DNA of 64,000 bases. It comes from Saccharopolyspora erythraea NRRL 2338. GTDB taxonomy: Bacteria; Actinomycetota; Actinomycetes; Mycobacteriales; Pseudonocardiaceae. The notes beneath the pieces are model-generated. The model saw only the letters and a list, made by a program, of their open reading frames with translations. It searched no databases and was not told the origin of the DNA. The stretch spans positions 3,275,584 to 3,339,583 of the forward strand of contig NC_009142.1 in NCBI RefSeq assembly GCF_000062885.1. The letters run 5' to 3'. Positions 21,326 through 35,089 of the stretch are shown here, in pieces. The translations under genes and the position numbers were made by a program. Position 1 is the first letter of the stretch. Each line of letters starts with the position of its first letter.

Positions 21326-23290
21326 ATGCCACCAGGCGGGAACAAGGCTTCGAAGCCGCCACCCGAGGACCGCGGGGCATCCGGGCCGCGCACGCCCGGC
21401 CGCGCGGACACCGCCGGTCCGGGGACCCCCGCACTAGTCCTCACCGTGCTGGTGGCGATCGGCGCGGGTCTGGCCGCGCTGCTGGCCGCCGGGTTGGTCG
21501 CGGTGTCCTCCGGGCAGCAGGCCGGGCTGGGACTGCCCGAGCCCGGCGCGCTGACCCGCTACGGCCTGCCGGTGGTGAAGGTCGTCGCCGACGTCGCCGC
21601 GGCGCTGTGCATCGGATTCCTGTGGTTCGCCGGGTTCGCCACCGCGTGGGGGTACGGCCGCGCGCTCGGCGCGGACGGACGCGCCGCGGTGCGGGCCGCC
21701 GGTTGGGCGGCGGTGGTGTGGTTCGCCGCTGCCGCCTCGACGGCACCCCTGCTCGCCGCCGACGTGGTGGGGCGCCCGCCGGGCGAACTGGTTCGCACGG
21801 GTTCGCTCGTCGGTCTCGTGGGCGGGATCGAGCAGTCCCGCGCGTGGGCCGCCACGGCGGCGGTCGCGTTGGTGCTCGCGGCGGGGTGCTGGACGGCCCG
21901 CTCGTGGGGGCGCACCGCATGGCTGCTCGTCCTGGCGATGGGCGGGCTGCTGCCGATCGCGGTGACGGGCCATTCGGCGAGCAGCGGCGCGCATGACATC
22001 GCCACCGCGAGCCTCCTCCAGCACCTGCTCGCGGCGTCGCTGTGGGTGGGCGGGCTCGTCGCGCTGCTGACCCACGCGGCCCGGCGCGGCGGGCACCTCG
22101 CGGCGGCCACGCGCCGGTTCTCCGGCCTGGCACTGGTGTGCTGGGTCGCGCTCGCCGTGACCGGAGCGGTCAACGCGCTGACCAGACTGCCGGCGACCGA
22201 GCTGCTGAGCACCGCCTACGGGCTGCTGGTGCTGGCCAAGACCGCCGCCCTGCTGGTGCTCGGCCTCATCGGATATCTCCAGCGCAGGAGTGTGGTGGCC
22301 GCGGTGGCGGGTGGCCGCTCCGGCGCGCTGTTGCGGCTCGGGGCGGTCGAGGTGCTGCTGATGCTGTGCACGGTCGGCATCGCGGTGTCGCTCGGCCGCA
22401 CGGCCGCGCCCGCACTCGGTGGCGGGACCACGAGGGAGGAGCTGTTGCTCGGGTTCGTCGTCGGCGGACCGCCGACCCCGGTGCGGTTCGCCGTCGACTG
22501 GCGTGTCGACCTGGTCTGCGCGGTGCTCGCCCTGGCGATGGCCGCCGCCTACTGGCTGGGCGTGCGCCGCGTGCGCGCCGTCGGCGGGCGGTGGCCGAAG
22601 GGCAGGACCGCTGCCTTCGCCTGCGGGTGCGGTGTTCTGCTGCTGACGACGTCGTCGGGGTTCGCCCGCTACCTGCCGTCCGTGCCGAGTGCGCTGGCGG
22701 GAGGTCTGCTGCTGCTCGCCGTCGTGGCACCGGCGTTGCTCGCGCTCGGCTGCCCCGTGCGCCTGCTGGAGCGGACGACGATCCCGGGCGGAGCCCTGCC
22801 AGGGCCACGGGAGTGGGGGCGGGCGATCTGGCGCACGCGCACGGTCCGGTTGCTCACCCAACCCCTGGTCGCCGCGCTGGTGCTGGTGCTGGTCTTCTTC
22901 GGCCTGTACTTCTCCGGAGTCTTGGAGGCCGGTCTGTACGAGTACTGGTTGCAGCCCGCCGTGCGGTTGGGGTTCCTGTGCGCGGGTTGGCTGTTCTACT
23001 GGTCCGTGCTGGGTGTCGACCCGGTGCCGGCCGGAGCCGCGGTCGGCACGCGGGTCGCGGCGGTCTTCGTGGCGGGTGGCGGTCTGGCCGCCTTCGGGGT
23101 GTCGCTGACGCGGACCGCGACGCCGATCGGCGAGCGGTTCTACCGCGCCCTGGAACTGCCGTGGATGCCCGAGGTCGTGGCCAGCCAGCACACCGGTGGC
23201 GTGCTCGCGGTGGGCGCGGCGGGCGTGCTCCTCGCGGTCTCGGCGACCGTCCTGCTGCGCGGCGGCGAGGAGCGCGGCGACGCGCGCTGA
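21326..23290 (+). CDS. copD: CopD / cytochrome c oxidase assembly (CtaG-like) fusion membrane protein
   Basis: 654 residues; GGAGG at 21311-21315 precedes the ATG. The first half (about residues 30-330) is CopD-like with eight or so membrane helices and conserved His (AVTGHSASSGAHDIATASLLQHLLAASLWVGGLVAL). The second half (about 380-640) is the cytochrome c oxidase caa3 assembly factor (CtaG) domain: LGCPVRLLERTTIPGG, LFFGLYFSG-like helix, LEAGLYEYWLQPAVRLGFLCAGWLFYWSVLGVDPVPAG and PWMPEVVASQHTGGVLAVG. This fusion is common in actinomycetes and is thought to move copper across the membrane for oxidase assembly. It is divergent from copC and followed by a DUF305 gene. Confidence 0.92.
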   Translation: MPPGGNKASKPPPEDRGASGPRTPGRADTAGPGTPALVLTVLVAIGAGLAALLAAGLVAVSSGQQAGLGLPEPGALTRYGLPVVKVVADVAAALCIGFLWFAGFATAWGYGRALGADGRAAVRAAGWAAVVWFAAAASTAPLLAADVVGRPPGELVRTGSLVGLVGGIEQSRAWAATAAVALVLAAGCWTARSWGRTAWLLVLAMGGLLPIAVTGHSASSGAHDIATASLLQHLLAASLWVGGLVALLTHAARRGGHLAAATRRFSGLALVCWVALAVTGAVNALTRLPATELLSTAYGLLVLAKTAALLVLGLIGYLQRRSVVAAVAGGRSGALLRLGAVEVLLMLCTVGIAVSLGRTAAPALGGGTTREELLLGFVVGGPPTPVRFAVDWRVDLVCAVLALAMAAAYWLGVRRVRAVGGRWPKGRTAAFACGCGVLLLTTSSGFARYLPSVPSALAGGLLLLAVVAPALLALGCPVRLLERTTIPGGALPGPREWGRAIWRTRTVRLLTQPLVAALVLVLVFFGLYFSGVLEAGLYEYWLQPAVRLGFLCAGWLFYWSVLGVDPVPAGAAVGTRVAAVFVAGGGLAAFGVSLTRTATPIGERFYRALELPWMPEVVASQHTGGVLAVGAAGVLLAVSATVLLRGGEERGDAR

Positions 23291-23406
23291 CCGGCTCGAC
23301 GCGCGTGGCGGCCCCGCGGTCCGCGTGGTACCACGGTCAGCGGGCCCCGGAGCGGGCGGACCCGCTCCCACCACAGGTGCCAACAGCCCGGGGAAGTGGT
23401 GTGGTC

Positions 23407-24093
23407 ATGTCGGGGCGCGTTCCCGCGCTGAGGTCGGTCCTCGTGCTCGCCCTGTGCGTCGCGGCGGGACTGCTCGTCGCCGCCGGGGTTATCCTGCTCG
23501 CCACGCCGGACCGCGCCGAGTCTCCGCGACCCGGCCCGGTCGACATCGGCTTCTCCCAGGACATGAGCGCCCACCACGCGCAGGCCGCCGAACTGGCGAG
23601 CCTGGCGCGCGAGCGGAGCGCGGACCCGGCGGTCCGGGCGCTGGCGGTCGAGATCGAGACCTCCGAACTGGTGCAGGCCGGACGGATGCGGGGCTGGCTG
23701 CAGCTGTGGAACCAGCCGGAGACCCCGCCCGGCGGGCACATGGCGTGGATGGCTCCGGGAGGCGGGCACGCCGCTCACGGCCAGGCTCCGGAGTCGTCGC
23801 ACCACGGCGGGACACCGGGAGCGCCCGGGCTGATGCCCGGAATGGCCTCCGCCGAGGACATGGACAAGCTGCGCGCCGCCACTGGCCCCGAGTTCGACAC
23901 GTTCTTCCTGCAACTCATGGTCCGCCACCACCAGAGCGGCCTGCCGATGCTGCGGGAGGCGGTGGACCGGGCCACCACGCCGCAGGTTCGCGAGCTCGCC
24001 CAGCACATGATCCAGCAGCAGGGCGAGGAAACCGCGACCATGGCGCAACTGCTCCAGGAACGCGGAGCCGAGCAACTGCCCACACCGAACTGA
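23407..24093 (+). CDS. DUF305-domain protein, exported, copper-associated
   Basis: 228 residues from ATG 23407; a GTG two codons upstream is also possible. A signal/anchor helix (SVLVLALCVAAGLLVAAGVILLA) is followed by a DUF305 ferritin-like four-helix domain with the paired HH motifs: DMSAHHAQAAELASLA and LMVRHHQSGLPMLREAVDRA. The middle (residues about 110-150) is rich in Met and His (GGHMAWMAPGGGHAAHG, SSHHGG, MPGMASAEDM), as in copper-binding linkers. DUF305 proteins are often found with copper resistance genes, which fits the CopC and CopD genes before it. It ends at a bidirectional terminator. Confidence 0.88.
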   Translation: MSGRVPALRSVLVLALCVAAGLLVAAGVILLATPDRAESPRPGPVDIGFSQDMSAHHAQAAELASLARERSADPAVRALAVEIETSELVQAGRMRGWLQLWNQPETPPGGHMAWMAPGGGHAAHGQAPESSHHGGTPGAPGLMPGMASAEDMDKLRAATGPEFDTFFLQLMVRHHQSGLPMLREAVDRATTPQVRELAQHMIQQQGEETATMAQLLQERGAEQLPTPN

Positions 24094-24104
24094 CCCACGA
24101 CGCG

Positions 24105-24133
24105 GAGACGCCGCCCCGGCGGGGCGGCGTCTC
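24105..24133. terminator. Bidirectional terminator between DUF305 and sbnA
   Basis: Perfect 13-base arms GAGACGCCGCCCC (24105-24117) and GGGGCGGCGTCTC (24121-24133) with a GGC loop. It starts 12 bases after the DUF305 stop and lies 42 bases beyond the stop of sbnA on the other strand, so it can serve both convergent genes. It separates the copper genes from the Dap cluster. Confidence 0.85.
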
Positions 24134-24174
24134 CTGGGTGCGTTACCTGCTGTGCTGTTGTCGGCTGCCCGGCG

Positions 24175-25161
24175 TCAGGCCGCGTGCGAACCGACGCTCA
24201 CCACGTCCTCGTCGAGGATGTCGTCGCCGTAGAGGTCCTGCAGCCAGTTGGTCTGGTACACCGTGTCCAGGTAGCGCTCGCCCAGGTCCGGGGCGATGGC
24301 CACCGTGGTCAGGTCGCGGCCGTCGTGCTCGTCCAGCCACCGCGTCGCTCCGCTGACGACCGTGCCGGTGGAGCCGCCGAACATGAAGCCGCTCCTGGCC
24401 AGCCGGTGGCAGGCGCGGACGGTGTCGGGCTCCTCGACCCGCACCACGTCGTCGACGTAGGACTCGTCGAGCATCGGCGGGCGGACGTTGGTGCCCAGAC
24501 CGGGGATCATCCGGCGGCCGGGAGGGCCGCCGAAGGTCACCGAGCCGACGGCGTCGACCGCCACGATCCGCACCGACGGGTGCCACTCGCGGAAGTAGCG
24601 GGCGCAGCCCATCAGCGTCCCGGTCGTGCCCGCCCCGACGAACAGGACGTCCAGGTGCGGGAACTCGCGGGCGATGGCCGGCGCGGTCGTGCGGTAGTGC
24701 GACCGCCAGTTGGCCGGGTTGCTGTACTGGTTGAGCCACACGTACTTCTCGTCGGAGGCGCACAGCGCGCGGACGTAGTTGATGCGCGCCGCGAGGTAGC
24801 CGCCGGTCGCGTCCGGTTCGGAGACGATGTGGACCCGGCTGCCCAGGGCCTCCATCATCCGGCGGGTCGCCAGGTTGCAGCGGGGGTCGGTCACGCACAC
24901 GAACCGGTACCCCCTGCTCGCCGCGATCATGCTCAGCGCAACGCCCAGGTTCCCGGACGAGGACTCGACCAGGACCGACCCCGGCTTCAGGGTGCCGTCG
25001 CGCTCGGCGGCCTCGACCATCTCGGTCGCGGCCTTCAGCTTGATCGAGCCGGCGAAGTTGAAGCCCTCGCACTTCAGGAAGATGTTGTGCCCGAAGGTCG
25101 CCCGCAGGTCGACGTAGAGCTGCTCCTGGTTGAAGTCCGTGGGACCGGAGATGACTGGCAT
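24175..25161 (-). CDS. sbnA: 2,3-diaminopropionate biosynthesis protein SbnA (PLP-dependent)
   Basis: 328 residues on the minus strand with GAGGGAG before the ATG. It is a cysteine-synthase-fold PLP enzyme: the PLP lysine sits in FAGSIKLKAA, the substrate loop is VESSSGNLGVALSM, and the phosphate loop is VGAGTTGTLMG. The SbnA subgroup joins O-phospho-L-serine and L-glutamate to N-(1-amino-1-carboxyethyl)glutamate, which SbnB then oxidises to L-2,3-diaminopropionate (Dap). SbnB is at 32613-33683, so the pathway is complete. The gene is divergent from the rest of the cluster, over a 524-bp control region. The alternative, a plain cysteine synthase, is unlikely given SbnB nearby. Confidence 0.9.
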   Translation of the reverse strand: MPVISGPTDFNQEQLYVDLRATFGHNIFLKCEGFNFAGSIKLKAATEMVEAAERDGTLKPGSVLVESSSGNLGVALSMIAASRGYRFVCVTDPRCNLATRRMMEALGSRVHIVSEPDATGGYLAARINYVRALCASDEKYVWLNQYSNPANWRSHYRTTAPAIAREFPHLDVLFVGAGTTGTLMGCARYFREWHPSVRIVAVDAVGSVTFGGPPGRRMIPGLGTNVRPPMLDESYVDDVVRVEEPDTVRACHRLARSGFMFGGSTGTVVSGATRWLDEHDGRDLTTVAIAPDLGERYLDTVYQTNWLQDLYGDDILDEDVVSVGSHAA

Positions 25162-25685
25162 GGTGACTCCCTCAGTTTCGGCTACGCACCCGGCCGCTCC
25201 GTCGGTGGCGGTGCGGCGTCATACGAAAAGAGTCCGCATCCGGGCACGCCGGATCGATGGTGTGTTCCCCCGCGCGCCCGGAGCCGGCCCCCGCATCCCG
25301 AGTGGGACTGACCCACCCCGCGGCGGGGGCCAGCCCTACCCGCGTGCGCCCGCGTCTCGCGCGAGCTCCACGTGCGGTGGCGGCGCTCTCCGGTCCCGAG
25401 CGTCGTCCGGCCGTCCGTCCACTGTCGGCAGTGGCCGGAGACCGAAGTGGACCATCACCCGGTTGGGCGACGGAAGCATTTGCGCGTAGCCCTATCGGAC
25501 GAGGGTGCTGTCCCTACTCCGAATCGGGGGCGCGCACCCGTTGACTGTGGGGGCTGCCCGATGGTTCGCGGTGCTGCCCGGAGCGCACGCTTCTAGGCGT
25601 TGGTGAGACCGCCGGGTCGGCGGCCCGACGAACAGCGCCGGAAGCCGGCGATCCCCACCGCACCGCGACAGCGAGGACCTGCCTG
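25162..25685. promoter_or_regulatory. Divergent control region of the Dap cluster
   Basis: No gene is supported here. It separates sbnA (minus) from the Pls-like gene (plus), so it must hold promoters for both. A small hairpin ATCCGG/CCGGAT spans 25238-25254. A TTGACT hexamer lies near 25542. No iron box is visible, in contrast to the siderophore locus at 50.4 kb, so the Dap made here is not obviously iron-controlled. Confidence 0.45.
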
Positions 25686-28205
25686 ATGAGCCCAGCGAGC
25701 CAGACCGCCCGGACAGCCGAGACGACCGAACCCTCGACCACCCGGGATGGCCCGGCAGGCACCGCGGGCCGGCTCGCAGAGGTGCTGGCCGAGGTGGTGG
25801 GCGTCGAGCACGTCTCACCCGACAGCCACTTCTTCGACGACCTGGGCGCGGACTCGATGGTGATGGCCCGCTTCTGCGCCCGGGTCCGCAAGCGCGACGA
25901 CCTGCCGTCGGTGTCGATGAAGGACATCTACGGGCATTCCACGATCGCCAGCCTGACCGCCGCGCTGGTGGACGAGGAACCCGAGCCCATCGAGCCCGCG
26001 GTGCCCGCGCCGGTCGAGGTGGCCGAGCCGGTCGGCACGGTGCAGTACCTGTTCTGCGGCGCCGTGCAGCTGCTGACCTTCCTGGCCTACACCTACCTCG
26101 CCGCGTTCGTCATCGCCCACGGCTACGAGTGGATCTCCGAGGGCACCACGCTGCTGGAGGTCTACCTGCGCTCGCTGCTGTTCGGCACCGCAGGCTTCCT
26201 CGGCATGTGCTGCCTGCCGATCCTGGCCAAGTGGCTGCTCGTGGGCCGCTGGAAGCGGCAGCAGTTCCGCATCTGGAGCCCGGCCTACGTGCGGTTCTGG
26301 ATCGCCAAGACGCTCATCAAGGCGAACCCCGTCGCACTGTTCGCCGGTTCACCGCTGTACGTGCTGTACCTGCGGGCGCTGGGTGCCCGCATCGGCAAGG
26401 GCGTCACGATCCTGACCCGGCACGTCCCGGTGTGCACCGACATGCTCACCATCGGCGCGGGCACGGTCGTGCGCAAGGACGCCTACTTGCTCGGCTACCG
26501 GGCGCACGGCGGGCTGATCCAGACCGGCCCGGTCGCGCTGGGCGATGACGTCTTCGTCGGTGAGGAGGCGGTGCTCGACATCGACACCTCGATGGGCGAC
26601 CACGCCCACCTCGACCGCGCCTCCTCGCTGCACCCGGGCCAGGACGTCCCGGCGGGCGAGCGCTGGCACGGTTCTCCGGCGCGGCCGACAGACGTGGTGT
26701 CGCCCGAGGTCGAACCCGTCGCCTGCGGCACGCTGCGCCGGTTCGTCTACTCAGTCACGCAGCTGGTGAGCCTGCTGGCGCTGTTCCTGCCGCTGTTCGT
26801 GGGCGGCGTGGTCATGCTTCTGCTGGAGGTCCCACAGCTGCGGACGCTGCTGGAGCCCGGATCGCTGGCCTTCGCGAACTGGACGTTCTACGCCGACGCG
26901 CTGGCGGTGTCGTTCATCCTCTTCTTCGGTGCGCTGGTCTTCGGACTGCTGTTCGTCTTCACCGTGCCGCGCCTGATCAACCTGGTCCTGCGACCGGACC
27001 GGACCTACCGGCTCTACGGGTTCCACTACTGGGCCCAGCGGGTGGTCACCCGCATGACCAACGTCAAGCCGTTCAACGAACTCTTCGGCGACAGCTCCTA
27101 CATCGTGCACTACCTGCGTGCCCTCGGCTACGACCTCTCGCACGTCGAGCAGACCGGGTCCAACTTCGGTTCGGCCATCAAGCACGACAACCCGTACCTG
27201 AGCGCGGTGGGCCAGGGCACGATGGTCGCCGACGGCCTCTCGGTCGTCAACACCGAGTACTCCAGCACGTCGTTCCGCCTGTCAAGCACGAGGATCGGTC
27301 CGCACAACTTCCTCGGCAACCACATCGTCTACCCGCCGCAGGGCAGGACCGGCGACAACTGCCTGCTGGCGACCAAGGTTCTGGTACCGGTCGACGGCCC
27401 GGTGCGCACGGGCACCGGCCTGCTGGGCTCGCCCAGCATGCTGATCCCGCGCACGGTCCAGCGCGACAACACCTTCCAGCACCTGGAGGCCGGCGAGGAG
27501 TTCGCCCGCCGCCTCAAGGCCAAGAACAAGCACAACATCGTCTCGATGGCGCTTCGGCTGCTGGTGCGGTGGTTCAACTTCTTCCTGGTCGTGCTGTTCG
27601 CCTCGGCGGCGGCCGAGCTCTACCACTGGCTCGGCTCGGGTGCGCTCGCGCTGGCCACCACGCTGATCCTGGTGTTCAGCACCGCCTACTACGTCGTCGT
27701 GGAACGCGTCCTGGTCGCGTGCCTGCCGCTGCGGCCGATGTTCTGCTCCATCTACGACCGCAGGTTCTGGCGGCACGAACGCTTCTGGAAGGTCCCGGAG
27801 ACCAACCACCTGCCGTTCTTCGACGGCACTCCGTTCAAGGTGCTGATCTGGCGGCTGATGGGCGTGCGGATCGGCAAGCGGGTCTTCGACGACGGCTGCT
27901 TCCTGGCCGAGCGCACGCTGGTGAGCATCGGCGACGACTGCGCGCTCAACGCGGGCAGCAAGATCCAGTGCCACTCGCAGGAGGACGGCACGTTCAAGAT
28001 GGACCGCATCGCGCTGGGGACCGGCTGCACCGTCGGCGTCAACACCCTCGTGCACTACGGCGCGACCATGGGCGACGGTTCGGTGATCGGTGCCGACTCC
28101 TTCCTGATGAAGGGCGAGGAAGTCCCGCACCACCAGCGCTGGGCGGGCAACCCGGCCACGGAGGTTCGAAGTGACCAGCCTGTTCCGGTCCAACGCGGCG
28201 CCTGA
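25686..28205 (+). CDS. Pls/PosA-like polyamino-acid synthetase C-terminal half: T domain plus six-TM, three hexapeptide-like domains
   Basis: 839 residues. Residues about 25-97 are a phosphopantetheine carrier domain; Ser57 in DDLGADSMVMARF is the attachment site. Then come six membrane segments in three pairs (about 117-140/155-180, 350-375/395-430, 620-645/650-675), each pair followed by a soluble domain with left-handed beta-helix style hexapeptide repeats (ALGARIGKGVTI and GDDVFVGEEAVLDI; RIGPHNFLGNHIVYP; MGVRIGKRVFDDGCFL and IALGTGCTVGVNTLVHYGATMGDGSVIGADS). This is the layout of epsilon-poly-lysine synthetase, whose three soluble domains make isopeptide bonds between side-chain and carboxyl groups, but the N-terminal adenylation domain is absent. 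It probably elongates or acylates an amino acid loaded on its T domain by the A domain of the NRPS downstream. Role inferred; architecture seen. Confidence 0.85.
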   Translation: MSPASQTARTAETTEPSTTRDGPAGTAGRLAEVLAEVVGVEHVSPDSHFFDDLGADSMVMARFCARVRKRDDLPSVSMKDIYGHSTIASLTAALVDEEPEPIEPAVPAPVEVAEPVGTVQYLFCGAVQLLTFLAYTYLAAFVIAHGYEWISEGTTLLEVYLRSLLFGTAGFLGMCCLPILAKWLLVGRWKRQQFRIWSPAYVRFWIAKTLIKANPVALFAGSPLYVLYLRALGARIGKGVTILTRHVPVCTDMLTIGAGTVVRKDAYLLGYRAHGGLIQTGPVALGDDVFVGEEAVLDIDTSMGDHAHLDRASSLHPGQDVPAGERWHGSPARPTDVVSPEVEPVACGTLRRFVYSVTQLVSLLALFLPLFVGGVVMLLLEVPQLRTLLEPGSLAFANWTFYADALAVSFILFFGALVFGLLFVFTVPRLINLVLRPDRTYRLYGFHYWAQRVVTRMTNVKPFNELFGDSSYIVHYLRALGYDLSHVEQTGSNFGSAIKHDNPYLSAVGQGTMVADGLSVVNTEYSSTSFRLSSTRIGPHNFLGNHIVYPPQGRTGDNCLLATKVLVPVDGPVRTGTGLLGSPSMLIPRTVQRDNTFQHLEAGEEFARRLKAKNKHNIVSMALRLLVRWFNFFLVVLFASAAAELYHWLGSGALALATTLILVFSTAYYVVVERVLVACLPLRPMFCSIYDRRFWRHERFWKVPETNHLPFFDGTPFKVLIWRLMGVRIGKRVFDDGCFLAERTLVSIGDDCALNAGSKIQCHSQEDGTFKMDRIALGTGCTVGVNTLVHYGATMGDGSVIGADSFLMKGEEVPHHQRWAGNPATEVRSDQPVPVQRGA

Positions 28206-28230
28206 CGACCGCCTCCTCCGCGCGGGCGGG

Positions 28231-28258
28231 CCCCTGGCCACCGCGCCGGGGCCAGGGG
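28231..28258 (+). terminator. Hairpin between Pls-like and NRPS genes
   Basis: Arms CCCCTGGCC (28231-28239) and GGCCAGGGG (28250-28258) pair perfectly over nine bases with a ten-base loop. It begins 25 bases after the Pls-like stop. It may be a partial terminator that lowers NRPS expression, or an mRNA-stabilising element. Confidence 0.55.
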
Positions 28259-28300
28259 TGCCCGGACTCACCGGGACACACGCAATGACAGCACCACCGA

Positions 28301-28318
28301 GCACCGAGATATCGGTGC
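28301..28318. promoter_or_regulatory. Short palindrome just upstream of the NRPS ribosome site
   Basis: GCACCGA (28301-28307) and TCGGTGC (28312-28318) form seven-base arms around GATA. The arm ends two bases before GGAAGGAAG (28321-28329), the ribosome site of the NRPS. It could be an operator for an internal promoter or an RNA hairpin that limits ribosome access. Confidence 0.4.
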
Positions 28319-28337
28319 GTGGAAGGAAGAAGACGCG

Positions 28338-31300
28338 ATGGGAACGCTAACCGAGGCCGGCCGCGAGTTCTGGCGCGGTGTGCTCGCCGCGGGCGGTGCC
28401 ACCACCATCCCGCGGTGGACCCTCCACCCCGCCACCGGGACCGCCGAGCACGGGGTGCCGGTACCCGAGGGCCTCGCGGCCTCGGCGCTGCGGCTGGCCG
28501 AAGAGCTCGGCGTGCCGCTCAGCGCGGTGCTGCTGGCCGCGCACGCCGAGGTCCTCGCAGCGCTCTCCGGTGAGCGCGAGGTCACGACCGGCTACGTCGC
28601 CGAGGAGAAAGGGGACCCGTTGCCCTGCCGGCTGATCGTCGACGGCGGCTCCTGGCGGGACCTCGTGCGGGCGACCCGGCAGGTGGAGTCCGACATCGTG
28701 TCCAACAAGGACTTCCCGCTCGATGAGCTCCGGCGCGAGCTCGGCCTGGGCGAGGCGCCGTTCGAGACCGCGTTCGACCCGGCCGCCGACGGCGAACTCA
28801 CCGGCGGAACCGTGCTGCGGGTGGGGATCGAGCGGCACGGCGACCGGCTCGCGCTGCGCCTGCGGTACCGGACCGACGTCCTCGACGCCGACTGCGCCGC
28901 CAGGATCGCCGGCTACCACCTCACCGCCCTCACGCACCTCACCGCGGAGCCGGACGCCGAGCCCGGCAAGCGGAGCCTGCTCTCCGCCGAGGAGCTCCAC
29001 CACCAGGTCGAGGGGCTCGCCGGGCCGCACCGGGCGCTGCCGGACCAGCGGATGCACGAGCTGTTCGAGCAGCGCGTCCAGTTGCACCCGGGCGCGGTCG
29101 CGGCCGTGCACGGCGACCGAAGCTGGACCTACCGGGAGCTCAACGCGCGCGCCAACCGGCTGGCGCGCGCCCTGCTGGTGCGCGGTCTGGAGCCCGAGGG
29201 CGTCGTCGCGGTGGCCACCGAGCGCGACCTCGACTGGCTGGCCTCCGTGCTCGCGGTCTTCAAGGCCGGTGGCGCGTACCTGCCGATCGAGCCGCACTTC
29301 CCGGCCGACCGCATCGCGACCACCCTCTCCCGCGCCGAGTGCCGCATCGTGCTGACCGAACGCGGCAGCACCACAACGCTGGACCACGCGCTGGAGTCGC
29401 TGCCCGGGGTCCGGGCGCTGCTGGTCGACGACGCCTACGCCGAGGACCACGCCGAGGGCGACCTTGGCACCGAGATCGCCGCCGACCAGCTCGCCTACAT
29501 CTACTTCACCTCCGGCTCGACAGGCGAGCCCAAGGGCGCTATGTGCGAGCACGAGGGCATGCTCAACCACCTGCTGGCCAAGGTCGACGACCTGGGGATC
29601 GGCGAGGGCGGGGCCGTCGCCCAGATCGCCCCGCAGTGCTTCGACATCTCGCTGTGGCAGCTGCTCTCGGCGCTGGTGGTGGGCGGCCGGACGCTGCTGG
29701 TCGAGCAGGACGTGATCCTCGACGTGGAGCGGTTCGTGGACCGCATCGCCGAGGGCCGGGTCGCGGTGCTCCAGGTCGTGCCGTCCTACCTGGAGGTCGT
29801 GCTGTCCTACCTGGAGAACCACCCGCGCGAGCTGCCGGACCTGCAGTGCGTGTCGGTCACCGGCGAAGCCTTGAAGAAGGAGCTCGCCGAACGCTGGTTC
29901 GCCACCATGCCGGGGATTCGGCTGGTCAACGCCTACGGGCTGACCGAGACCTCCGACGACACCAACCACGAGGTCATGGACCGGGTGCCGGAGGGCGAAC
30001 GGGTGCCGCTGGGGCCCGCCATCCCCAACGTGCACGTCTACGTCGTCGACGAGAACCTCGACCCGGTGCCGCTGGGAGCGCCCGGCGAGATCGTCTTCTC
30101 CGGCGTCTGCGTCGGACGCGGCTACGTCAACGACCCCGACCGGACCAGGCTGGCGTTCCTGGCCGACCCGCACCGGCCGGGGCAGCGGCTCTACCGCAGC
30201 GGCGACCACGGGCGCTGGCTGCCGGAGGGCAAGCTGGAGTTCCTCGGCCGCCGGGACAGCCAGGTCAAGATCCGCGGGTTCCGGATCGAGATCGGCGAGA
30301 TCGAGAACACCCTGCTGCGGGTACCCGGCGTGCGCGACGGCGCCGTGGTCGTCGCCGAACGCGCCGATCTCAGCAAGCACCTGGCGGCGTTCTACTCCGC
30401 GCCGGGCGAGCTCGACGCCGGGATGCTGCGCGACACCCTCGCCGAGTCCCTGCCCGAGTACATGGTCCCGCCGGTGTTCCACTGGCGGGAGAGGCTGCCG
30501 CTGACCGCAAACGGCAAGATCGACAAGAAGGCGCTCAAGGCGCTGGCCGAGGAGCTGGAGGTCGTCGAGGAGGACTACCGCGCGCCGAGCACGCCGACCG
30601 AGCAGCGGCTGGCCGCGGCCTGGGCGGGGGTGCTCGGCGTCCCCGAGGACCAGGTCGGCAGGCAGGACCACTTCTTCGACCGCGGCGGCACCTCGCTGTC
30701 GGCGGTCAAGCTGGCCATCGCGCTGGACCGGGCCGTCTCGCTCAAGGAGATCACCGCCAACCCGGTGCTGGCCGACCTGGCCGCGCTGGTCGACGGCAGG
30801 GCGCGGCAGCGCGGCGGCCTGCTGCACCGGCTGTCCGAACCGGACGGCGGGCGCTCGGGCGCGCTCGTGTGCTTCCCCTACGCCGGGGGCAACGCGGTGA
30901 ACTTCCAGCCGATGGCCAGGGCGCTGCGCGGCAGCGGCCTGGAGGTCCACGCGGTCGAGCTGCCCGGCCACGACCTGGCCGCGGAAGCGGAACCGTTCGC
31001 GTCATTGGACCGGGTCGTCGACCAGGTGGCCGACGAGATCACCCGGCGCGGCCTGACCAGGATCATGCTCTGGGGGCACTCCTCGGGCACGGCGTTCGCC
31101 CTGGAGACCGCCCGCAGGCTGCGGGAGCACGGCACCGACGTCCAGCGGGTGTTCCTCGCCGCGCAACTGCCGGGCCGGGCCGCCGACCGCAGGGCCGCCA
31201 TGGCGGAGCTGACCGCGCGCCGCGACGCCGAGATCGCCGCCGACCTGCGCGCGGACACCGGTTACACCGAGCTCGGCGAGCTCGACGCCGAGCGCGCCGC

Positions 31301-31589
31301 GCACGTCGGTGCCGCCTACCGCCACGACTGCGTGTCGGCGCACGGCTACTTCGCCGACGCGCTGGAGCACCCACCGGAGGTCATGCTGTCCGTACCGGTC
31401 ACCGCGGTGCTGGCCGCCGACGACCCCAGCACGGGCGGCTCCGCCGACCGGCACCACGGCTGGCGGCCGCTGGCCGAGCACGTCGAGCTGCAGGAGCTCG
31501 CCGACGGCGGGCACCACTTCCTGCGCACCCGCCCGGCCGAGACGGCGCGGATCGTGCTGCGCGCCGCCGAACTGTTCGCATCCCCCTGA
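28338..31589 (+). CDS. Single-module NRPS: truncated C, A, T, TE (Dap cluster)
   Basis: 1083 residues. Residues 1-220 resemble only the second lobe of a condensation domain and lack HHxxxDG. The A domain (about 225-745) has YIYFTSGSTGEPKGA, the core APQCFDISLWQ, VNAYGLTETSDD, YRSGDHGRW and LPLTANGKIDKKAL. By eye its specificity residues read D-I-W-Q-S-T-A-D-D-K; the two late Asp could bind a side-chain amine such as that of Dap. The T domain carries Ser near 786 (FFDRGGTSLSAVKL). The TE (about 835-1083) has LWGHSSGTA and the catalytic His in GGHHFL, of the type II-like hydrolase fold. It lies between the Pls-like gene and the TauD gene. I infer that it activates Dap for itself or for the Pls-like T domain. 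Not recognised as a named enzyme. Confidence 0.85.
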   Translation: MGTLTEAGREFWRGVLAAGGATTIPRWTLHPATGTAEHGVPVPEGLAASALRLAEELGVPLSAVLLAAHAEVLAALSGEREVTTGYVAEEKGDPLPCRLIVDGGSWRDLVRATRQVESDIVSNKDFPLDELRRELGLGEAPFETAFDPAADGELTGGTVLRVGIERHGDRLALRLRYRTDVLDADCAARIAGYHLTALTHLTAEPDAEPGKRSLLSAEELHHQVEGLAGPHRALPDQRMHELFEQRVQLHPGAVAAVHGDRSWTYRELNARANRLARALLVRGLEPEGVVAVATERDLDWLASVLAVFKAGGAYLPIEPHFPADRIATTLSRAECRIVLTERGSTTTLDHALESLPGVRALLVDDAYAEDHAEGDLGTEIAADQLAYIYFTSGSTGEPKGAMCEHEGMLNHLLAKVDDLGIGEGGAVAQIAPQCFDISLWQLLSALVVGGRTLLVEQDVILDVERFVDRIAEGRVAVLQVVPSYLEVVLSYLENHPRELPDLQCVSVTGEALKKELAERWFATMPGIRLVNAYGLTETSDDTNHEVMDRVPEGERVPLGPAIPNVHVYVVDENLDPVPLGAPGEIVFSGVCVGRGYVNDPDRTRLAFLADPHRPGQRLYRSGDHGRWLPEGKLEFLGRRDSQVKIRGFRIEIGEIENTLLRVPGVRDGAVVVAERADLSKHLAAFYSAPGELDAGMLRDTLAESLPEYMVPPVFHWRERLPLTANGKIDKKALKALAEELEVVEEDYRAPSTPTEQRLAAAWAGVLGVPEDQVGRQDHFFDRGGTSLSAVKLAIALDRAVSLKEITANPVLADLAALVDGRARQRGGLLHRLSEPDGGRSGALVCFPYAGGNAVNFQPMARALRGSGLEVHAVELPGHDLAAEAEPFASLDRVVDQVADEITRRGLTRIMLWGHSSGTAFALETARRLREHGTDVQRVFLAAQLPGRAADRRAAMAELTARRDAEIAADLRADTGYTELGELDAERAAHVGAAYRHDCVSAHGYFADALEHPPEVMLSVPVTAVLAADDPSTGGSADRHHGWRPLAEHVELQELADGGHHFLRTRPAETARIVLRAAELFASP

Positions 31590-31611
31590 GCGGCAACGGA
31601 AAGGAATCGAG

Positions 31612-32616
31612 ATGTCGTCCTCAACTCCAGCGTCGGCGCTCGACGTCGACCTGCGGCCCGGCAAGCCCGCGATGCTGCGAGCGGATGCGGCCGGCGACGC
31701 GCCGAGATGGGCATCGGAACACCGGGACGCGCTGCGCGCCGCGGTGGCCGAGCACGGCTCGCTGTTGGTCCGCGGTCTCGGGGTGCGCGAGATCGCCGAG
31801 GCCGCCGCCGTCTTCCACCGGCTGTCCACCGGCCTGATGACCGAGCGGGAGGCCTTCGCCGCCCGCCAGGACCACGGCGACGGGGTGTACTCCTCGTCGA
31901 AGTGGCCGGCGAACCAGCAGATGTGCATGCACAACGAGCTGAGCTACGCCCTGGAGTTCCCGGGCATGATGCAGTTCGCCTGCCTGACCGCCCCCGAGCA
32001 CGGCGGAGCGACCGCGGTCGCCGACACGCCGACCGTGCTCGACGCGCTGCCCGCCGACCTCGTCGCGCGGTTCGAGCGCGAGGGCTGGCTGCTGGTCCGC
32101 AACTACAACGACGAGATCGGCGCGTCGTTCGCCGAGGCGTTCGGCACCGACGACCGGGCCGAGGTCGAGCGGTACTGCCGCAACAACGCCATCGAGTTCG
32201 AGTGGCAGCCCGACGGAGGGCTGCGCACCAGGCAGCGCCGCAGCGCCGTCGTGCGCCACCCGGCCACCGGGCGGCGCTGCTGGTTCAACCAGATCGCGTT
32301 CCTCAACGAGTGGACGATCGCACCCGAGGTGCGCGAGTTCCTGGTCGAGGTCTACGGCCCCGAGGGGCTGCCGTTCAACACGCTCTTCGGCAACGGGGAA
32401 CCGGTGGGCGAGGACGTCGTGGCGCTGCTCAACGAGGTCTACGAGGCCAACACCGCCCGGGAGCCCTGGCAGGACGGCGACCTGATGCTGGTCGACAACA
32501 TCCGCAACGCCCACAGCCGGGAGGCGTACGAGGGACCGCGCGAGGTCCTCGTCGCGATGGCCGACGCCACGCACCTCGCCGCCTGCTCGCCGACGATCGA
32601 GGTGACCGCCCCATGA
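31612..32616 (+). CDS. TauD/SyrP-like Fe(II)/2-oxoglutarate dioxygenase
   Basis: 334 residues; AAGGAA at 31601-31606 precedes the ATG. The iron site is HxE in MCMHNELSY (His107, Glu109) with the distal His in DNIRNAHSREAY and the 2-oxoglutarate Arg in GPREVLVAM. The surrounding sequence (ATAVADTPTVLDALP, FEWQPDGGLRTRQRR, CWFNQIAFLNEW, PFNTLFGNGEPV) is that of the SyrP-like clavaminate-synthase group, which beta-hydroxylate carrier-bound or free amino acids. In this cluster it may hydroxylate Dap or a peptide-bound residue. Its stop overlaps the sbnB start (ATGA), which ties its action closely to Dap supply. Confidence 0.87.
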   Translation: MSSSTPASALDVDLRPGKPAMLRADAAGDAPRWASEHRDALRAAVAEHGSLLVRGLGVREIAEAAAVFHRLSTGLMTEREAFAARQDHGDGVYSSSKWPANQQMCMHNELSYALEFPGMMQFACLTAPEHGGATAVADTPTVLDALPADLVARFEREGWLLVRNYNDEIGASFAEAFGTDDRAEVERYCRNNAIEFEWQPDGGLRTRQRRSAVVRHPATGRRCWFNQIAFLNEWTIAPEVREFLVEVYGPEGLPFNTLFGNGEPVGEDVVALLNEVYEANTAREPWQDGDLMLVDNIRNAHSREAYEGPREVLVAMADATHLAACSPTIEVTAP

Positions 32617-33683
32617 CCACCATCCACACCGGCCAGGAGAAGACCGCCGAGTCGCAGCAGGCCACCGTGCCACCGTTCGCGGTGATCTCCGGTGCGCAGG
32701 TGCAGAGGACGCTGGAGGGACGCGAGAGCGAGATCGTGGAGCTGACCGAGGAGATCTACCGCGTGCACGCCGCGGGAGACTCGGTGAACCCGCCGTCGTA
32801 CTTCCTGCGCTTCCCGGATCGCCCCAACTCCCGGATCATCGCGCTGCCCGCGTCGATCGGCGGGCGGGTCCGCGTGGACGGGATGAAGTGGATCTCCAGC
32901 TTTCCGGACAACGTGGCGGCGGGCATCCCGCGCGCCTCGGCCGTGCTGATCCTCAACGACCACGACACCGGCTACCCGTTCGCCTGCATGGAGAGCTCCA
33001 TCATCAGCGCCACCAGGACCGCGGCCTCGGCGGCGCTGGCCGCCGACCGGCTCAGCCGGGGTCGTGGGCGTCCGGCGCGCGTCGGGTTCTTCGGGGTGGG
33101 CCTGATCGCCCGCTACATCCACCGGTTCCTGGTCGGCACCGGCTGGTCGTTCGACGACATCGGCGTGTACGACCTGTCGGCCGAGAGCGCGGCCGGTTTC
33201 CGGGGCTACCTGGAGCAGACCGTCGGGACCGGCCGGGTCACCCTGCACGACGACGCCGAGCAGCTCATCCGGTCCAGCGACCTGGTGGTGTTCGCGACCG
33301 TCGCGGGAACTCCGCACGTGCACGACGCGTCGTGGTTCCGGCACAACCCGCTGGTGCTGCACGTGTCGCTGCGCGACCTGGCCCCGGAGATCATCCTCGC
33401 CTCGGCCAACGTCGTCGACGACGTCGAGCACTGCCTGAAGGCCGACACCTCGCCGCACCTGGCCGAGCAGCTCACCGGCGACCGGGAGTTCCTCGACGGC
33501 ACGCTGGAGGACGTGATGTCCGAGCGGATCACGCCGCCCACCGACCGCCCGCTGGTGTTCTCGCCCTTCGGGCTCGGGGTGCTCGACCTCGGCGTGGGCA
33601 AGTACGTCTACGACGAGGTCGCCGCCGCGGGCGAGCTGCAGGTGGTCGACGACTTCTTCCACGAGCTGCGCCGCTACGGCTAG
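32613..33683 (+). CDS. sbnB: 2,3-diaminopropionate biosynthesis protein SbnB (NAD-dependent)
   Basis: 356 residues from the ATG that overlaps the dioxygenase stop. It is an ornithine-cyclodeaminase/mu-crystallin-fold enzyme: VNPPSYFLRFPDRPNSRIIALPA, GMKWISSFPDNVAAGIPRASA, then the Rossmann loop VGFFGVGLIARYIHRFL and HVSLRDLAPEIILASANVVDDVEHCL. The SbnB subgroup oxidatively cleaves the SbnA product to L-Dap, 2-oxoglutarate and NADH. Together with SbnA at 24175-25161 this gives a complete Dap pathway bracketing the synthetase genes. The released 2-oxoglutarate is also a cosubstrate of the coupled dioxygenase. No clear terminator follows. Confidence 0.92.
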   Translation: MTTIHTGQEKTAESQQATVPPFAVISGAQVQRTLEGRESEIVELTEEIYRVHAAGDSVNPPSYFLRFPDRPNSRIIALPASIGGRVRVDGMKWISSFPDNVAAGIPRASAVLILNDHDTGYPFACMESSIISATRTAASAALAADRLSRGRGRPARVGFFGVGLIARYIHRFLVGTGWSFDDIGVYDLSAESAAGFRGYLEQTVGTGRVTLHDDAEQLIRSSDLVVFATVAGTPHVHDASWFRHNPLVLHVSLRDLAPEIILASANVVDDVEHCLKADTSPHLAEQLTGDREFLDGTLEDVMSERITPPTDRPLVFSPFGLGVLDLGVGKYVYDEVAAAGELQVVDDFFHELRRYG

Positions 33684-33854
33684 GGACCCGTGCGTCCCTC
33701 GGGCCGCCCCAACGACCCCGAAGACTCACGGGTGCTCGTGGCGGTGCGCGCAGCGTGGGAGGGTGCTGCGGACGCTGCCGGGGGTAGGGCTCGTGCCCGA
33801 TGTTACCGACCAGTAGTATCGGGTGGTCCCACCGCCGGAAGCAGAGGATCGCCG

Positions 33855-34658
33855 ATGCCGGAACGAGTCTCGGTCGAGATCGACGGGCCGCTGGCCCACG
33901 TCACCATGACGCGGGCGGACCGGCTCAACGGCCTCGACCTCGACATGATGCGCGCGCTGGTCGAGGCCGCCGGACAGGTGCGCGCCGACCGGGACGTCCG
34001 CGCGGTCGTCCTCAGCGGTGCGGGCAAGTCCTTCTGCGCCGGGCTGGACTTCGCCTCCGTGGGCAGGCAGCCCCGGCGGATGATGCTCAACTTCCTGCGG
34101 CCGCCGTGGCGCTCCACCAACCTGTACCAGGAGATGTGCTGGGTGTGGCGCAGACTGCCGGTGCCGGTGCTCGCGGTCATCCGGGGGCACTGCTTCGGCG
34201 GCGGCCTGCAGCTCGCGCTCGGCGCCGACTTCCGCTTCACCACCCCCGACTGCCAGTTCTCGGTGATGGAGGCCAAGTGGGGCCTGGTGCCCGACATGAG
34301 CGGCACCGCCACGCTGCGCGAGCTGCTGCCGGTGGACGTGGCCAAGCGGCTGGCCATGACGGGCGAGACCTTCGACGGAAACCGGGCCCGCGAGCTGGGA
34401 CTGGTCACCGAGGTCTGCGACGACCCGGCCGCGGCGGCGACCGAACTGGCGCACCGGATCGCCGGGCGCTCCCCGGACGCGGTCGCGGCGACCAAACGGC
34501 TGTTCCACCAGGCGTGGCACGCGGCCTCGTGGCGCGCGTTCCGGCTGGAGAGCGCCAACCAGCTCAGGCTGCTGCTCGGGAAGAACCACAAGATCGCGCG
34601 CAGGGCCAACTCCGAGCGGAGTGAGCCCGAGTTCGCCCGCCGAACCTTCGGGCGCTAG
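33855..34658 (+). CDS. Enoyl-CoA hydratase/isomerase (crotonase family)
   Basis: 267 residues from ATG 33855 with AGAGGAT upstream. Crotonase features: VTMTRADRLNGLDLDMMRALVEA, AVVLSGAGKSFCAGLDFASVG (first oxyanion segment), IRGHCFGGGLQLALGADFRFTTP (second) and FSVMEAKWGLVPDMSGTATLREL. The acid positions of true hydratases are not both certain, so isomerase or hydrolase activity is possible. A 171-bp gap separates it from sbnB, with TAGTAT at 33814-33819 as a possible -10 box and a TTACCGACCAGTA stretch that could be a TetR-type half-palindrome. I think it is not part of the Dap cluster. It ends in a strong hairpin. Confidence 0.88.
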   Translation: MPERVSVEIDGPLAHVTMTRADRLNGLDLDMMRALVEAAGQVRADRDVRAVVLSGAGKSFCAGLDFASVGRQPRRMMLNFLRPPWRSTNLYQEMCWVWRRLPVPVLAVIRGHCFGGGLQLALGADFRFTTPDCQFSVMEAKWGLVPDMSGTATLRELLPVDVAKRLAMTGETFDGNRARELGLVTEVCDDPAAAATELAHRIAGRSPDAVAATKRLFHQAWHAASWRAFRLESANQLRLLLGKNHKIARRANSERSEPEFARRTFGR

Positions 34659-34665
34659 ACGGGAA

Positions 34666-34702
34666 CCCGCCGATGGCACGCCCACGACGCGCCATCGGCG
34701 GG
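34666..34702. terminator. Terminator between crotonase gene and Gly-rich peptide A
   Basis: Perfect 12-base arms CCCGCCGATGGC (34666-34677) and GCCATCGGCGGG (34691-34702) with a 13-base loop, eight bases after the crotonase stop. The peptide A gene on the other strand stops at 34760, so the hairpin can act in both directions. Confidence 0.8.
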
Positions 34703-34759
34703 AATCCAGCGGTGTGAAGCGGACGGGTCAGCCTTGATCCGGCCGACCCGCCGGCTCGG

Positions 34760-35089
34760 TCACCACTTGCTGCCGGCGAACGCGTCACCGCCGGGGCCAC
34801 CGATGCCGTTGCCGCCCCAACCGGTGCCGCCGTGGCCGAAGTTGCCGCCGTGGCCGCCGTTGCCGCCATGGCCGAACTGGCCACCCATACCGCCGCGGCC
34901 ACCTTCGCCGCCGCCGTGGCCGCCGCCGTGGCCGCCGCCGTTGCCGCCGTCGCCGGCATGAGCGTTGTTCGTCTCACCGCCCCAGTCCGCTCGCGGACCG
35001 CCAAACGCGAACATCGTCAGGACGGTGCGCGCCGGAAGAAATTCCACCCGCTGGTCCTCCAGCTCGAAAAGGCTGATTTCGTGAGACAC
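34760..35089 (-). CDS. Gly-rich peptide A with conserved LPART leader (RiPP-precursor-like)
   Basis: 109 residues on the minus strand from a GTG at 35089, chosen because AGAGGAGG lies just upstream. Residues 1-24 (SHEISLFELEDQRVEFLPA, then RTVL) match the start of peptide B at 35805, showing a shared leader with RVEFLPARTVLT identical in both. A short linker with Trp (GGPRADWGGETNNAH) is followed by about 60 residues of GGxGG and GHGG repeats rich in Gly, His and Asn, ending DAFAGSKW. No signal peptide or Cys. The leader-like N-terminus with a low-complexity tail resembles precursors of ribosomal peptides or bacteriocin-like products. Divergent partner of peptide B and near a PqqD-like/M50 protease. 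Function unknown. Confidence 0.75.
   Translation of the reverse strand: MSHEISLFELEDQRVEFLPARTVLTMFAFGGPRADWGGETNNAHAGDGGNGGGHGGGHGGGEGGRGGMGGQFGHGGNGGHGGNFGHGGTGWGGNGIGGPGGDAFAGSKW

Follow-up and report, generated by a model that had tools for sequence, protein, structure and literature searches.

How can a synthetase of the poly(amino acid) type, a membrane enzyme that joins diamino acids to antimicrobial polymers, operate when its own chain lacks the adenylation (A) domain that would activate the monomer? This question is raised by five adjacent genes of Saccharopolyspora erythraea NRRL 2338 (a genome assembled as a single contig of 8.2 Mb), which occupy positions 24175-33683 of the window, i.e., of the whole 64,000-nucleotide stretch analyzed here (NC_009142.1, positions 3,275,584 to 3,339,583): sbnA, a gene for a protein resembling epsilon-poly-lysine synthetase (Pls), a nonribosomal peptide synthetase (NRPS) gene, a TauD-type dioxygenase gene and sbnB. 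The first-pass annotation of this DNA had proposed that the A domain of the NRPS acts in trans on the carrier (T) domain of the Pls-like protein. The comparison of related genomes supports this proposal: the gene set was retained in 39 of 60 stretches, the A domain was damaged in 12 of 12 examined Pls of such sets that still keep one, NRPS modules without A domains were found beside the same genes in 6 of 7 Pls-free clusters, and a dioxygenase match occurred in 47 of 47 genomes with short Pls frames versus 32 of 67 with longer ones only. As judged from this comparison, supply of the Pls T domain in trans by the NRPS appears well supported, and the five genes probably encode a poly(amino acid) synthetase whose activation step has been moved off the synthetase.

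Gene set of the locus

All five reading frames start with ATG and are free of internal stops, their GC content at third codon positions (GC3) being 0.94-0.97, and the products match the respective families, which bears out the earlier description of a five-gene layout bracketed by SbnA and SbnB. The TGA of the dioxygenase gene and the ATG of sbnB overlap (ATGA), and the term "coupled", applied previously to this pair, is therefore apt. The gene set stands above chance because it recurs in many genomes.

The Pls-like protein possesses a PP-binding domain at residues 29-94 and matches the full-length TIGR02353 model at residues 124-824 (768.5 bits, cut-off 423), and the Pfam search gave no AMP-binding match in it; thus, its description as a T-domain protein devoid of an A domain holds. 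With regard to the six transmembrane helices and three soluble tandem domains of Pls/PosA synthetases, six hydrophobic stretches were left after merging (residues ~122-144, 163-187, 353-385, 399-436, 618-643 and 648-680), and the AlphaFold model contains three pairs of long helices, although at low confidence (mean predicted local distance difference test score, pLDDT, 49.8). Among the features of Pls/PosA synthetases, the TIGR02353 region and the carrier serine on the same chain are present, but the same-chain A domain is not, and strictly speaking the protein is therefore no Pls/PosA synthetase. The carrier serine was kept in all 119 Pls-type T matches scoring at least 45 bits, and a cassette copy from the same genus is intact, its Pls being 86% identical to that of the window. 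The host genome has two kinds of Pls, because the second one, at 3.567 Mb (stretch L105, 3.558-3.577 Mb), carries a fused A domain with an intact A3 motif and the pocket DFEYLGTVTK.

The neighboring NRPS had been recognized as a separate protein with A, T and thioesterase (TE) domains; all of them were matched, by the Pfam models AMP-binding, AMP-binding_C, PP-binding and Thioesterase, together with a weak N-terminal Condensation match overlooked in the earlier reading. Its A domain retains the A3, A5, A7 and A8 motifs and the A10 lysine, and the T serine was kept in 61 of 61 matches scoring at least 80 bits. The N-terminal extension is shorter in the Streptomyces homologues of stretches L051 and L056.

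Conservation of the cassette

Hereafter, L-numbers denote the DNA stretches and G-numbers the genomes compared; the NRPS, dioxygenase, SbnB and SbnA genes are referred to as the quartet, and the quartet together with the Pls gene as the cassette. A search of 390 genomes of the family with the dioxygenase protein gave a match at 1e-30 or better in 204 of them. Around matches of the list, 60 stretches no longer than 20 kb (L058-L097 and L110-L129) were chosen by hand from the top and lower tiers, so that they do not form a random sample. All five genes were found within 9 kb of the dioxygenase in 39 of these stretches, and a further six had four genes including the Pls and NRPS genes. The quartet without Pls was found in seven stretches, Pls and dioxygenase without the NRPS, SbnA and SbnB in four (L060, L079, L085 and L110), NRPS and dioxygenase as a two-gene class in two (L126 and L129), the dioxygenase with SbnB in one and the dioxygenase alone in one. 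The Pls core was thus present in 49 of the 60 dioxygenase-selected stretches. SbnA was missed by the 9-kb rule in four stretches, in three of which (L069, L072 and L117) it sits just past this distance, upstream of Pls; SbnB was missing in two, and one such stretch, L112, ends with its contig. The full set was also found in Streptomyces fulvoviolaceus (L051) and S. fumigatiscleroticus (L056). Genome comparison had been named beforehand as one of the checks that could refute the proposal, and the Pls gene proved to be kept with those of SbnA, SbnB and the NRPS in the 39 stretches mentioned.

Among the 39 complete cassettes there is one T copy in 26 cases, two in 11 and three in one, while in the remaining case none was seen; the extra copies would fit a carrier awaiting loading from outside.

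Several additional genes were observed in these stretches. In L060, L075, L079, L085 and L110 an A-less Pls, whose T domain occurs as a tandem of two or three copies, and the dioxygenase are accompanied by a stand-alone acyl ligase, which matched TIGR03098 in L075 as the sole one of the five loci scanned and which perhaps provides an acyl cap for the polymer; a small carrier-like protein is present in L060, L075, L079 and L085. L075 has SbnA, SbnB and the NRPS as well, whereas the other acyl-ligase loci are without them. A threonine synthase-like enzyme of the pyridoxal phosphate (PLP) type, recognized by eye, is found in seven cassette stretches (L064, L066, L067, L068, L069, L074 and L083). 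Downstream of sbnA in L051 and L056 there are three genes of about 544, 380 and 290 residues, the first resembling acyl-CoA dehydrogenases by eye and the last truncated at the stretch boundary.

Loss and decay of the cis A domain

In a TIGR02353 scan of 298 genomes of the order, with up to three candidates scored per genome, at least nine short Pls frames (<1200 residues) were revealed among the listed matches. Seven of the nine listed lie in a cassette (window genome, G103, G212, G182, G186, G198 and G281), the contig of G182 ending before the dioxygenase is reached. Of the remaining two, that of G068 (L109) is a fragment at a contig edge, and that of G090 (L104) is a Pls of low identity whose A domain has a reading frame of its own.

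Where a cassette Pls retains an N-terminal A domain, the A3 P-loop was damaged in all 12 proteins examined, an example being ITYSAGADGRPTG, and it was intact in all 20 compared Pls with no cassette seen alongside; both counts refer to the examined Pls, a subset of the long-frame Pls in the family-wide search. In the first ten damaged domains (L062, L069, L072, L112, L116, L117, L118, L120, L121 and L122) the A8 motif is mostly either damaged or lacking, and the A10 lysine column holds another residue in 10 of 10, as against lysine in all seven intact fused domains read alongside. The other two damaged domains are one in a cassette (L151) and one in L150, where the NRPS continues past the contig end and only its N-terminal part is visible; in L124 the Pls is at the stretch edge with its N-terminus outside. 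The first eleven cassette-free Pls with intact A3 include the second Pls of the host genome, and for seven of the eleven (L001, L004, L008, L011, L016, L022 and L057) the flank is about 1.5 kb at most, so that the absence of a cassette is weakly tested there. The other nine intact ones come from L152-L159 (two in L156), L152 having little flank on one side. Among the 13 plus-strand loci of L001-L030 six were aligned, and the other seven are A3-intact as well.

The pocket starts with DFE in six of the first ten damaged domains, and the intact relatives in L052 and L055 have DFECLSVVTK. According to PMC10522769 (this and the other papers cited below are drawn on in part), synthetases of poly-diaminopropionate (PDAP) and poly-diaminobutyrate (PDAB) have Phe at pocket position 2, and Glu at position 3 occurs family-wide. 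The decayed domains thereby suggest an ancestor with a cis A domain and a PDAP-like pocket. In a tree of 81 Pls cores the cassette Pls fell within one supported group of 60 with five fused relatives. Damaged and absent A domains are interspersed there, and each of these two labels must have changed at least twice to agree with the supported branches. This tree was built by a quick method with the Shimodaira-Hasegawa-like approximate likelihood ratio test (SH-aLRT) as the only support measure, and its inner forks are weak in many cases; the window copy L006, a duplicate, was left out, as were rows under 550 residues (L069 and others).

The family-wide Pls search (150 listed rows from 114 genomes) was cross-tabulated with the dioxygenase search. 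Wherever a Pls frame below 1150 residues was listed for a genome, that genome had a dioxygenase match at 1e-100 or better (47 of 47), compared to 32 of the 67 genomes with longer frames only; frame length serves here as a proxy for A loss (the 1283-residue frame of L149 has no A match) and kinship is ignored, so that the Fisher value is no more than a guide.

NRPS modules without A domains

The host genome harbors a second quartet without Pls at ~4.76 Mb (4.752-4.806 Mb; L078, L098 and L099). The adjoining NRPS cluster encodes a 7270-residue protein with four modules lacking an A domain, in which Pfam recognized condensation and carrier domains, AMP-binding only as a scrap at the end of one module and an AMP-binding_C remnant in another; a neighboring module of the same protein has a full A domain, and a further remnant was seen by eye. 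Such modules were found beside the quartet in six of seven Pls-free clusters, as counted with home-made hidden Markov models (HMMs), each based on two to six sequences; besides the four of the host genome there are four in G592, four in G359, at least one in G484, two in G593 and one in G341. Since A-less modules and A-less Pls stand by the same quartet, A domains are missing from two kinds of acceptor. A hydroxylase resembling clavaminate synthase, GntD and VioC, below the cut-offs, also adjoins the second quartet of the host genome.

Dap supply and the likely substrate

Both SbnA (TIGR03945, 417.3 bits, cut-off 349.95) and SbnB (TIGR03944, 418.0 bits, cut-off 327) exceed the equivalog cut-offs expected of enzymes for L-2,3-diaminopropionate (L-Dap), and the solved structures closest to the window SbnA are those of SbnA and CmnB. 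SbnA or SbnB lies within 9 kb in 52 of the 54 dioxygenase-selected stretches that contain an A domain of the quartet type, and the remaining two (L126 and L129) have an SbnA-family enzyme and an ArgH-type lyase instead. An SbnB search at 1e-40 gave one sub-cut-off match in G474 and none in G118, the genomes of these two stretches. In L125, L126 and L129 an SbnA-family enzyme and an ArgH-type lyase, none of which reaches the equivalog cut-offs, lie near the dioxygenase in place of SbnB; an ATP-grasp-like domain is also present in L126 and L129. This set may represent an alternative, aspartate-based route to Dap, which favors Dap as the substrate, though short of proof.

The pocket code of the window NRPS is DIWQSTADDK. 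Among 58 homologues with at least 60% identity, this code was read in 37, DIWQSTTDDK in 13, DIWQCTTDDK in four, DIWQATADDK in two and DIWQSTVDDK in two, the positions being placed by motif and by GrsA numbering. We take the pocket to be akin to serine pockets (D-x-W, D331) with one more acidic residue; the two acidic residues would fit a diamino acid. DIWQSTADDK was not found in the open literature under the forms searched, and the specificity therefore rests on context, by which Dap is the likely substrate.

The dioxygenase and the proposed mechanism

The dioxygenase has the Fe(II)/2-oxoglutarate signature of TauD enzymes (His-x-Asp/Glu...His and Arg). The His-x-Glu, the distal His and the 2-oxoglutarate Arg were kept in 67 of 68 dioxygenases, that of L149 being cut by a contig end; their roles in binding the metal and 2-oxoglutarate are presumed from the TauD family. 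The His-x-Glu motif favors hydroxylation or desaturation over halogenation. A PDB sequence search gave strong matches only to At3g21360 and a TauD protein with no function named, and three weak ones; the structure model, based on three sequences, is poor (mean pLDDT 38.2).

We propose that SbnA and SbnB would make L-Dap, which the A-T NRPS would activate and load onto its own T domain, where the dioxygenase would oxidize the carrier-bound residue. The latter would then pass to the T domain of the A-less Pls, either by direct docking or with the A domain or the TE as mediator, and be polymerized in the membrane by iterative isopeptide formation. Hydroxylation would thus concern the monomer rather than the finished product. 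The loss of the cis A domain would prevent direct loading of unmodified Dap and route all monomers through oxidation, which may be the reason for this loss. Comparison gives good support to the gene set, to the loss or decay of the cis A domain and to the association of A-less carriers with the quartet, while oxidation on the carrier, the hand-over route and the polymeric product are what we infer from them. A TE was present in 10 of the 39 complete cassettes and absent in 29, which rules out a TE shuttle as the general mechanism; therefore, the hand-over possibly proceeds via the A domain or docking.

Evidence against the proposal and alternative explanations

Several observations weigh against the mechanism proposed. 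More than one T domain was found in only 12 of the 39 complete cassettes. Among nine short-frame Pls picked away from listed dioxygenases, two were with SbnA only and one with an NRPS A domain, a T domain and SbnA, but six A-less Pls stand alone, cassette genes not being found in their stretches; each of the nine genomes gave a dioxygenase match at another place. Conversely, six fused Pls (L152, L153, L155, two in L156, and L158) are A3-intact in genomes with a dioxygenase elsewhere, and the genome of L156, G554, also holds the cassette L122; hence, the decay tracks the local cassette and not the presence of a dioxygenase in the genome. The pocket code recurs in L126 and L129, yet SbnB is not nearby, and the quartet cluster of G333 shows no A-less module. 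Finally, beta-hydroxylation of Dap with a free amine would give an unstable hemiaminal, and the enzyme may instead catalyze desaturation, N-oxidation or a reaction after acylation.

The alternatives considered partly overlap with the mechanism preferred, and their likelihoods are not to be summed to unity. Loading in trans might deliver an unoxidized monomer, so that ordinary poly-Dap is made, with the dioxygenase decorating the completed polymer or acting separately. The PDAP-like ancestor suggested by the decayed domains and the frequent absence of a TE are in line with this, as is the unmodified PDAP produced by the known poly-Dap synthetase, according to the part of PMC4668381 drawn on. 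We nevertheless regard it as rather unlikely, as it leaves unexplained both why a working cis A domain was lost repeatedly and why the NRPS has a separate T domain, and as the dioxygenase accompanies the A-T gene in Pls and lipopeptide-type contexts alike (in stretches chosen by the dioxygenase). It appears unlikely as well that the NRPS activates another small amino acid, with Dap only an acceptor or co-monomer of a mixed or branched oligomer: the pocket does resemble serine pockets, and L126 and L129 have it without SbnB, but the presence of SbnA/SbnB in 52 of 54 stretches, with the SbnA-family enzyme and ArgH-type lyase in the other two, speaks for Dap, and the two acidic pocket residues would suit a diamino acid. 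A branched Dap polymer, which would agree with such an oligomer, is known (cited in PMC10522769, as far as its portion used here goes). The A-less Pls could, lastly, be dead or non-polymerizing, the quartet serving another pathway; the six solitary A-less Pls and a frame break in the Pls core of L069 point this way. This is highly improbable in view of the full-length TIGR02353 match in the window (768 bits), the T serine kept in 119 of 119 matches, the T domains amplified in 12 of 39 complete cassettes and the intact copy of the same genus with 86% Pls identity.

Relation to known systems

The PDAP synthetase of Streptomyces albulus PD-1 shares with the window protein the C-terminal membrane architecture and a carrier domain, and this strain also has an SbnA/SbnB-like Dap supply; there, however, the A and T domains are on one chain and the Dap genes are distant from the synthetase gene, and neither a dioxygenase nor a separate NRPS is described in the portion of PMC4668381 used, unlike in the window. 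PosA and epsilon-poly-lysine synthetase likewise have the TIGR02353-type region, membrane helices and a carrier domain, but their A domain is fused and active, whereas that of the window is absent and those of the examined cassette relatives retaining one are damaged (PMC10522769). In streptothricin biosynthesis ORF18 and ORF19 similarly make an isopeptide oligomer of the diamino acid beta-lysine with an A domain that stands alone and a carrier apart from it, but without a Pls-type membrane region and with the A domain itself elongating the chain (PMC9606270).

The syringomycin system SyrB1/SyrB2/SyrC resembles the cassette in its stand-alone A-T protein, its tailoring enzyme acting on the carrier-bound residue and its A-less acceptor, and differs in that SyrB2 is a halogenase and the acceptor an NRPS module, in place of the His-x-Glu enzyme and the Pls found here (PMC8949500). 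The cassette does have the stand-alone A-T with intact motifs and the acceptor carrier without a working A domain; the role of a dedicated acyl-transfer protein could fall to the TE of the window, yet only 10 of the 39 complete cassettes have one. By analogy, the cassette would work like a Pls/PosA synthetase joined to SyrB1-type loading in trans. The stand-alone A-T proteins of ramoplanin and enduracidin also have an N-terminal extension and complement an inactive A domain in trans (PMC8949500), but the extension of the window protein differs in its weak condensation match and is shorter in the two Streptomyces homologues. The same source, in the part used, provides precedents for modules complemented in trans (albicidin, ramoplanin and enduracidin) and for TauD enzymes that lie next to A domains and act on aspartate bound to a carrier. 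SbnA/SbnB of staphyloferrin B and CmnB/CmnK of capreomycin are among the closest solved structures or relatives of the window enzymes, but serve a siderophore or a tuberactinomycin, whereas the window ones stand beside a Pls. No description of an A-less or trans-fed Pls-type synthetase was found in the open-access literature searched, which is not proof of absence.

Feature coordinates and neighborhood

Coordinates of the individual features are collected in Table 1. A consensus scan of positions 25000-25800 gave no sigma-70-like site or terminator, and no Rfam matches were obtained in 23000-35000. A large NRPS runs from ~54.4 kb to the end of the window as a 5448-residue frame continuing past it, and all four of its complete modules have an A domain.

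Table 1. Features of the five-gene locus, in window positions
Feature	Positions	Strand	Basis
sbnA, SbnA-type PLP enzyme, first half of L-Dap supply	24175..25161	-	TIGR03945 equivalog
Intergenic region of the divergent sbnA and Pls-like genes, presumed promoter region	25162..25685	.	Gene layout
A-less Pls/PosA-type synthetase, T domain and NRPS_term_dom	25686..28205	+	TIGR02353; without AMP-binding match
T domain of the Pls-like protein, motif GADSM	25770..25967	+	PF00550, 6.8e-10
Membrane/hexapeptide polymerizing region of the Pls-like protein	26055..28157	+	TIGR02353; hydrophobic segments; low-confidence model
Stand-alone NRPS: condensation remnant, A, T, TE	28338..31589	+	Pfam/NCBIfam matches
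NRPS N-terminal extension, condensation-domain remnant	28338..29033	+	PF00668, weak, below cut-off, residues 7-89
NRPS A domain, pocket DIWQSTADDK, core motifs intact	29064..30539	+	PF00501, 1.7e-78
NRPS T domain	30603..30791	+	PF00550
NRPS TE (alpha/beta hydrolase) domain, not conserved across cassettes	30864..31556	+	PF00975, 5.6e-20
TauD-family Fe(II)/2-oxoglutarate dioxygenase	31612..32616	+	PF02668, 4.6e-43
sbnB, SbnB-type dehydrogenase, second half of L-Dap supply	32613..33683	+	TIGR03944 equivalog; start overlaps dioxygenase stop

Significance

A bolder interpretation, which we advance tentatively and consider possible, is that the cassette represents a new class of polymers, homopolymers of oxidized diaminopropionate made by a trans-fed Pls, and that the A-T/dioxygenase pair is a portable unit repeatedly causing the deletion of cis A domains in Pls and modular NRPSs alike; the oxidized residue may be hydroxylated, dehydrogenated or N-oxidized. 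The Pls-type synthetases of the cited papers, in the parts used here, carry their own A domain, while by the genomic signs the polymerizing half of the cassette apparently uses an imported monomer. Such import would let tailoring on the carrier reach the monomer, opening polymer chemistry to modified residues. Taken together, the series from intact through damaged to absent cis A domains and the A-less NRPS modules suggest a natural rule for the rewiring of synthetases.

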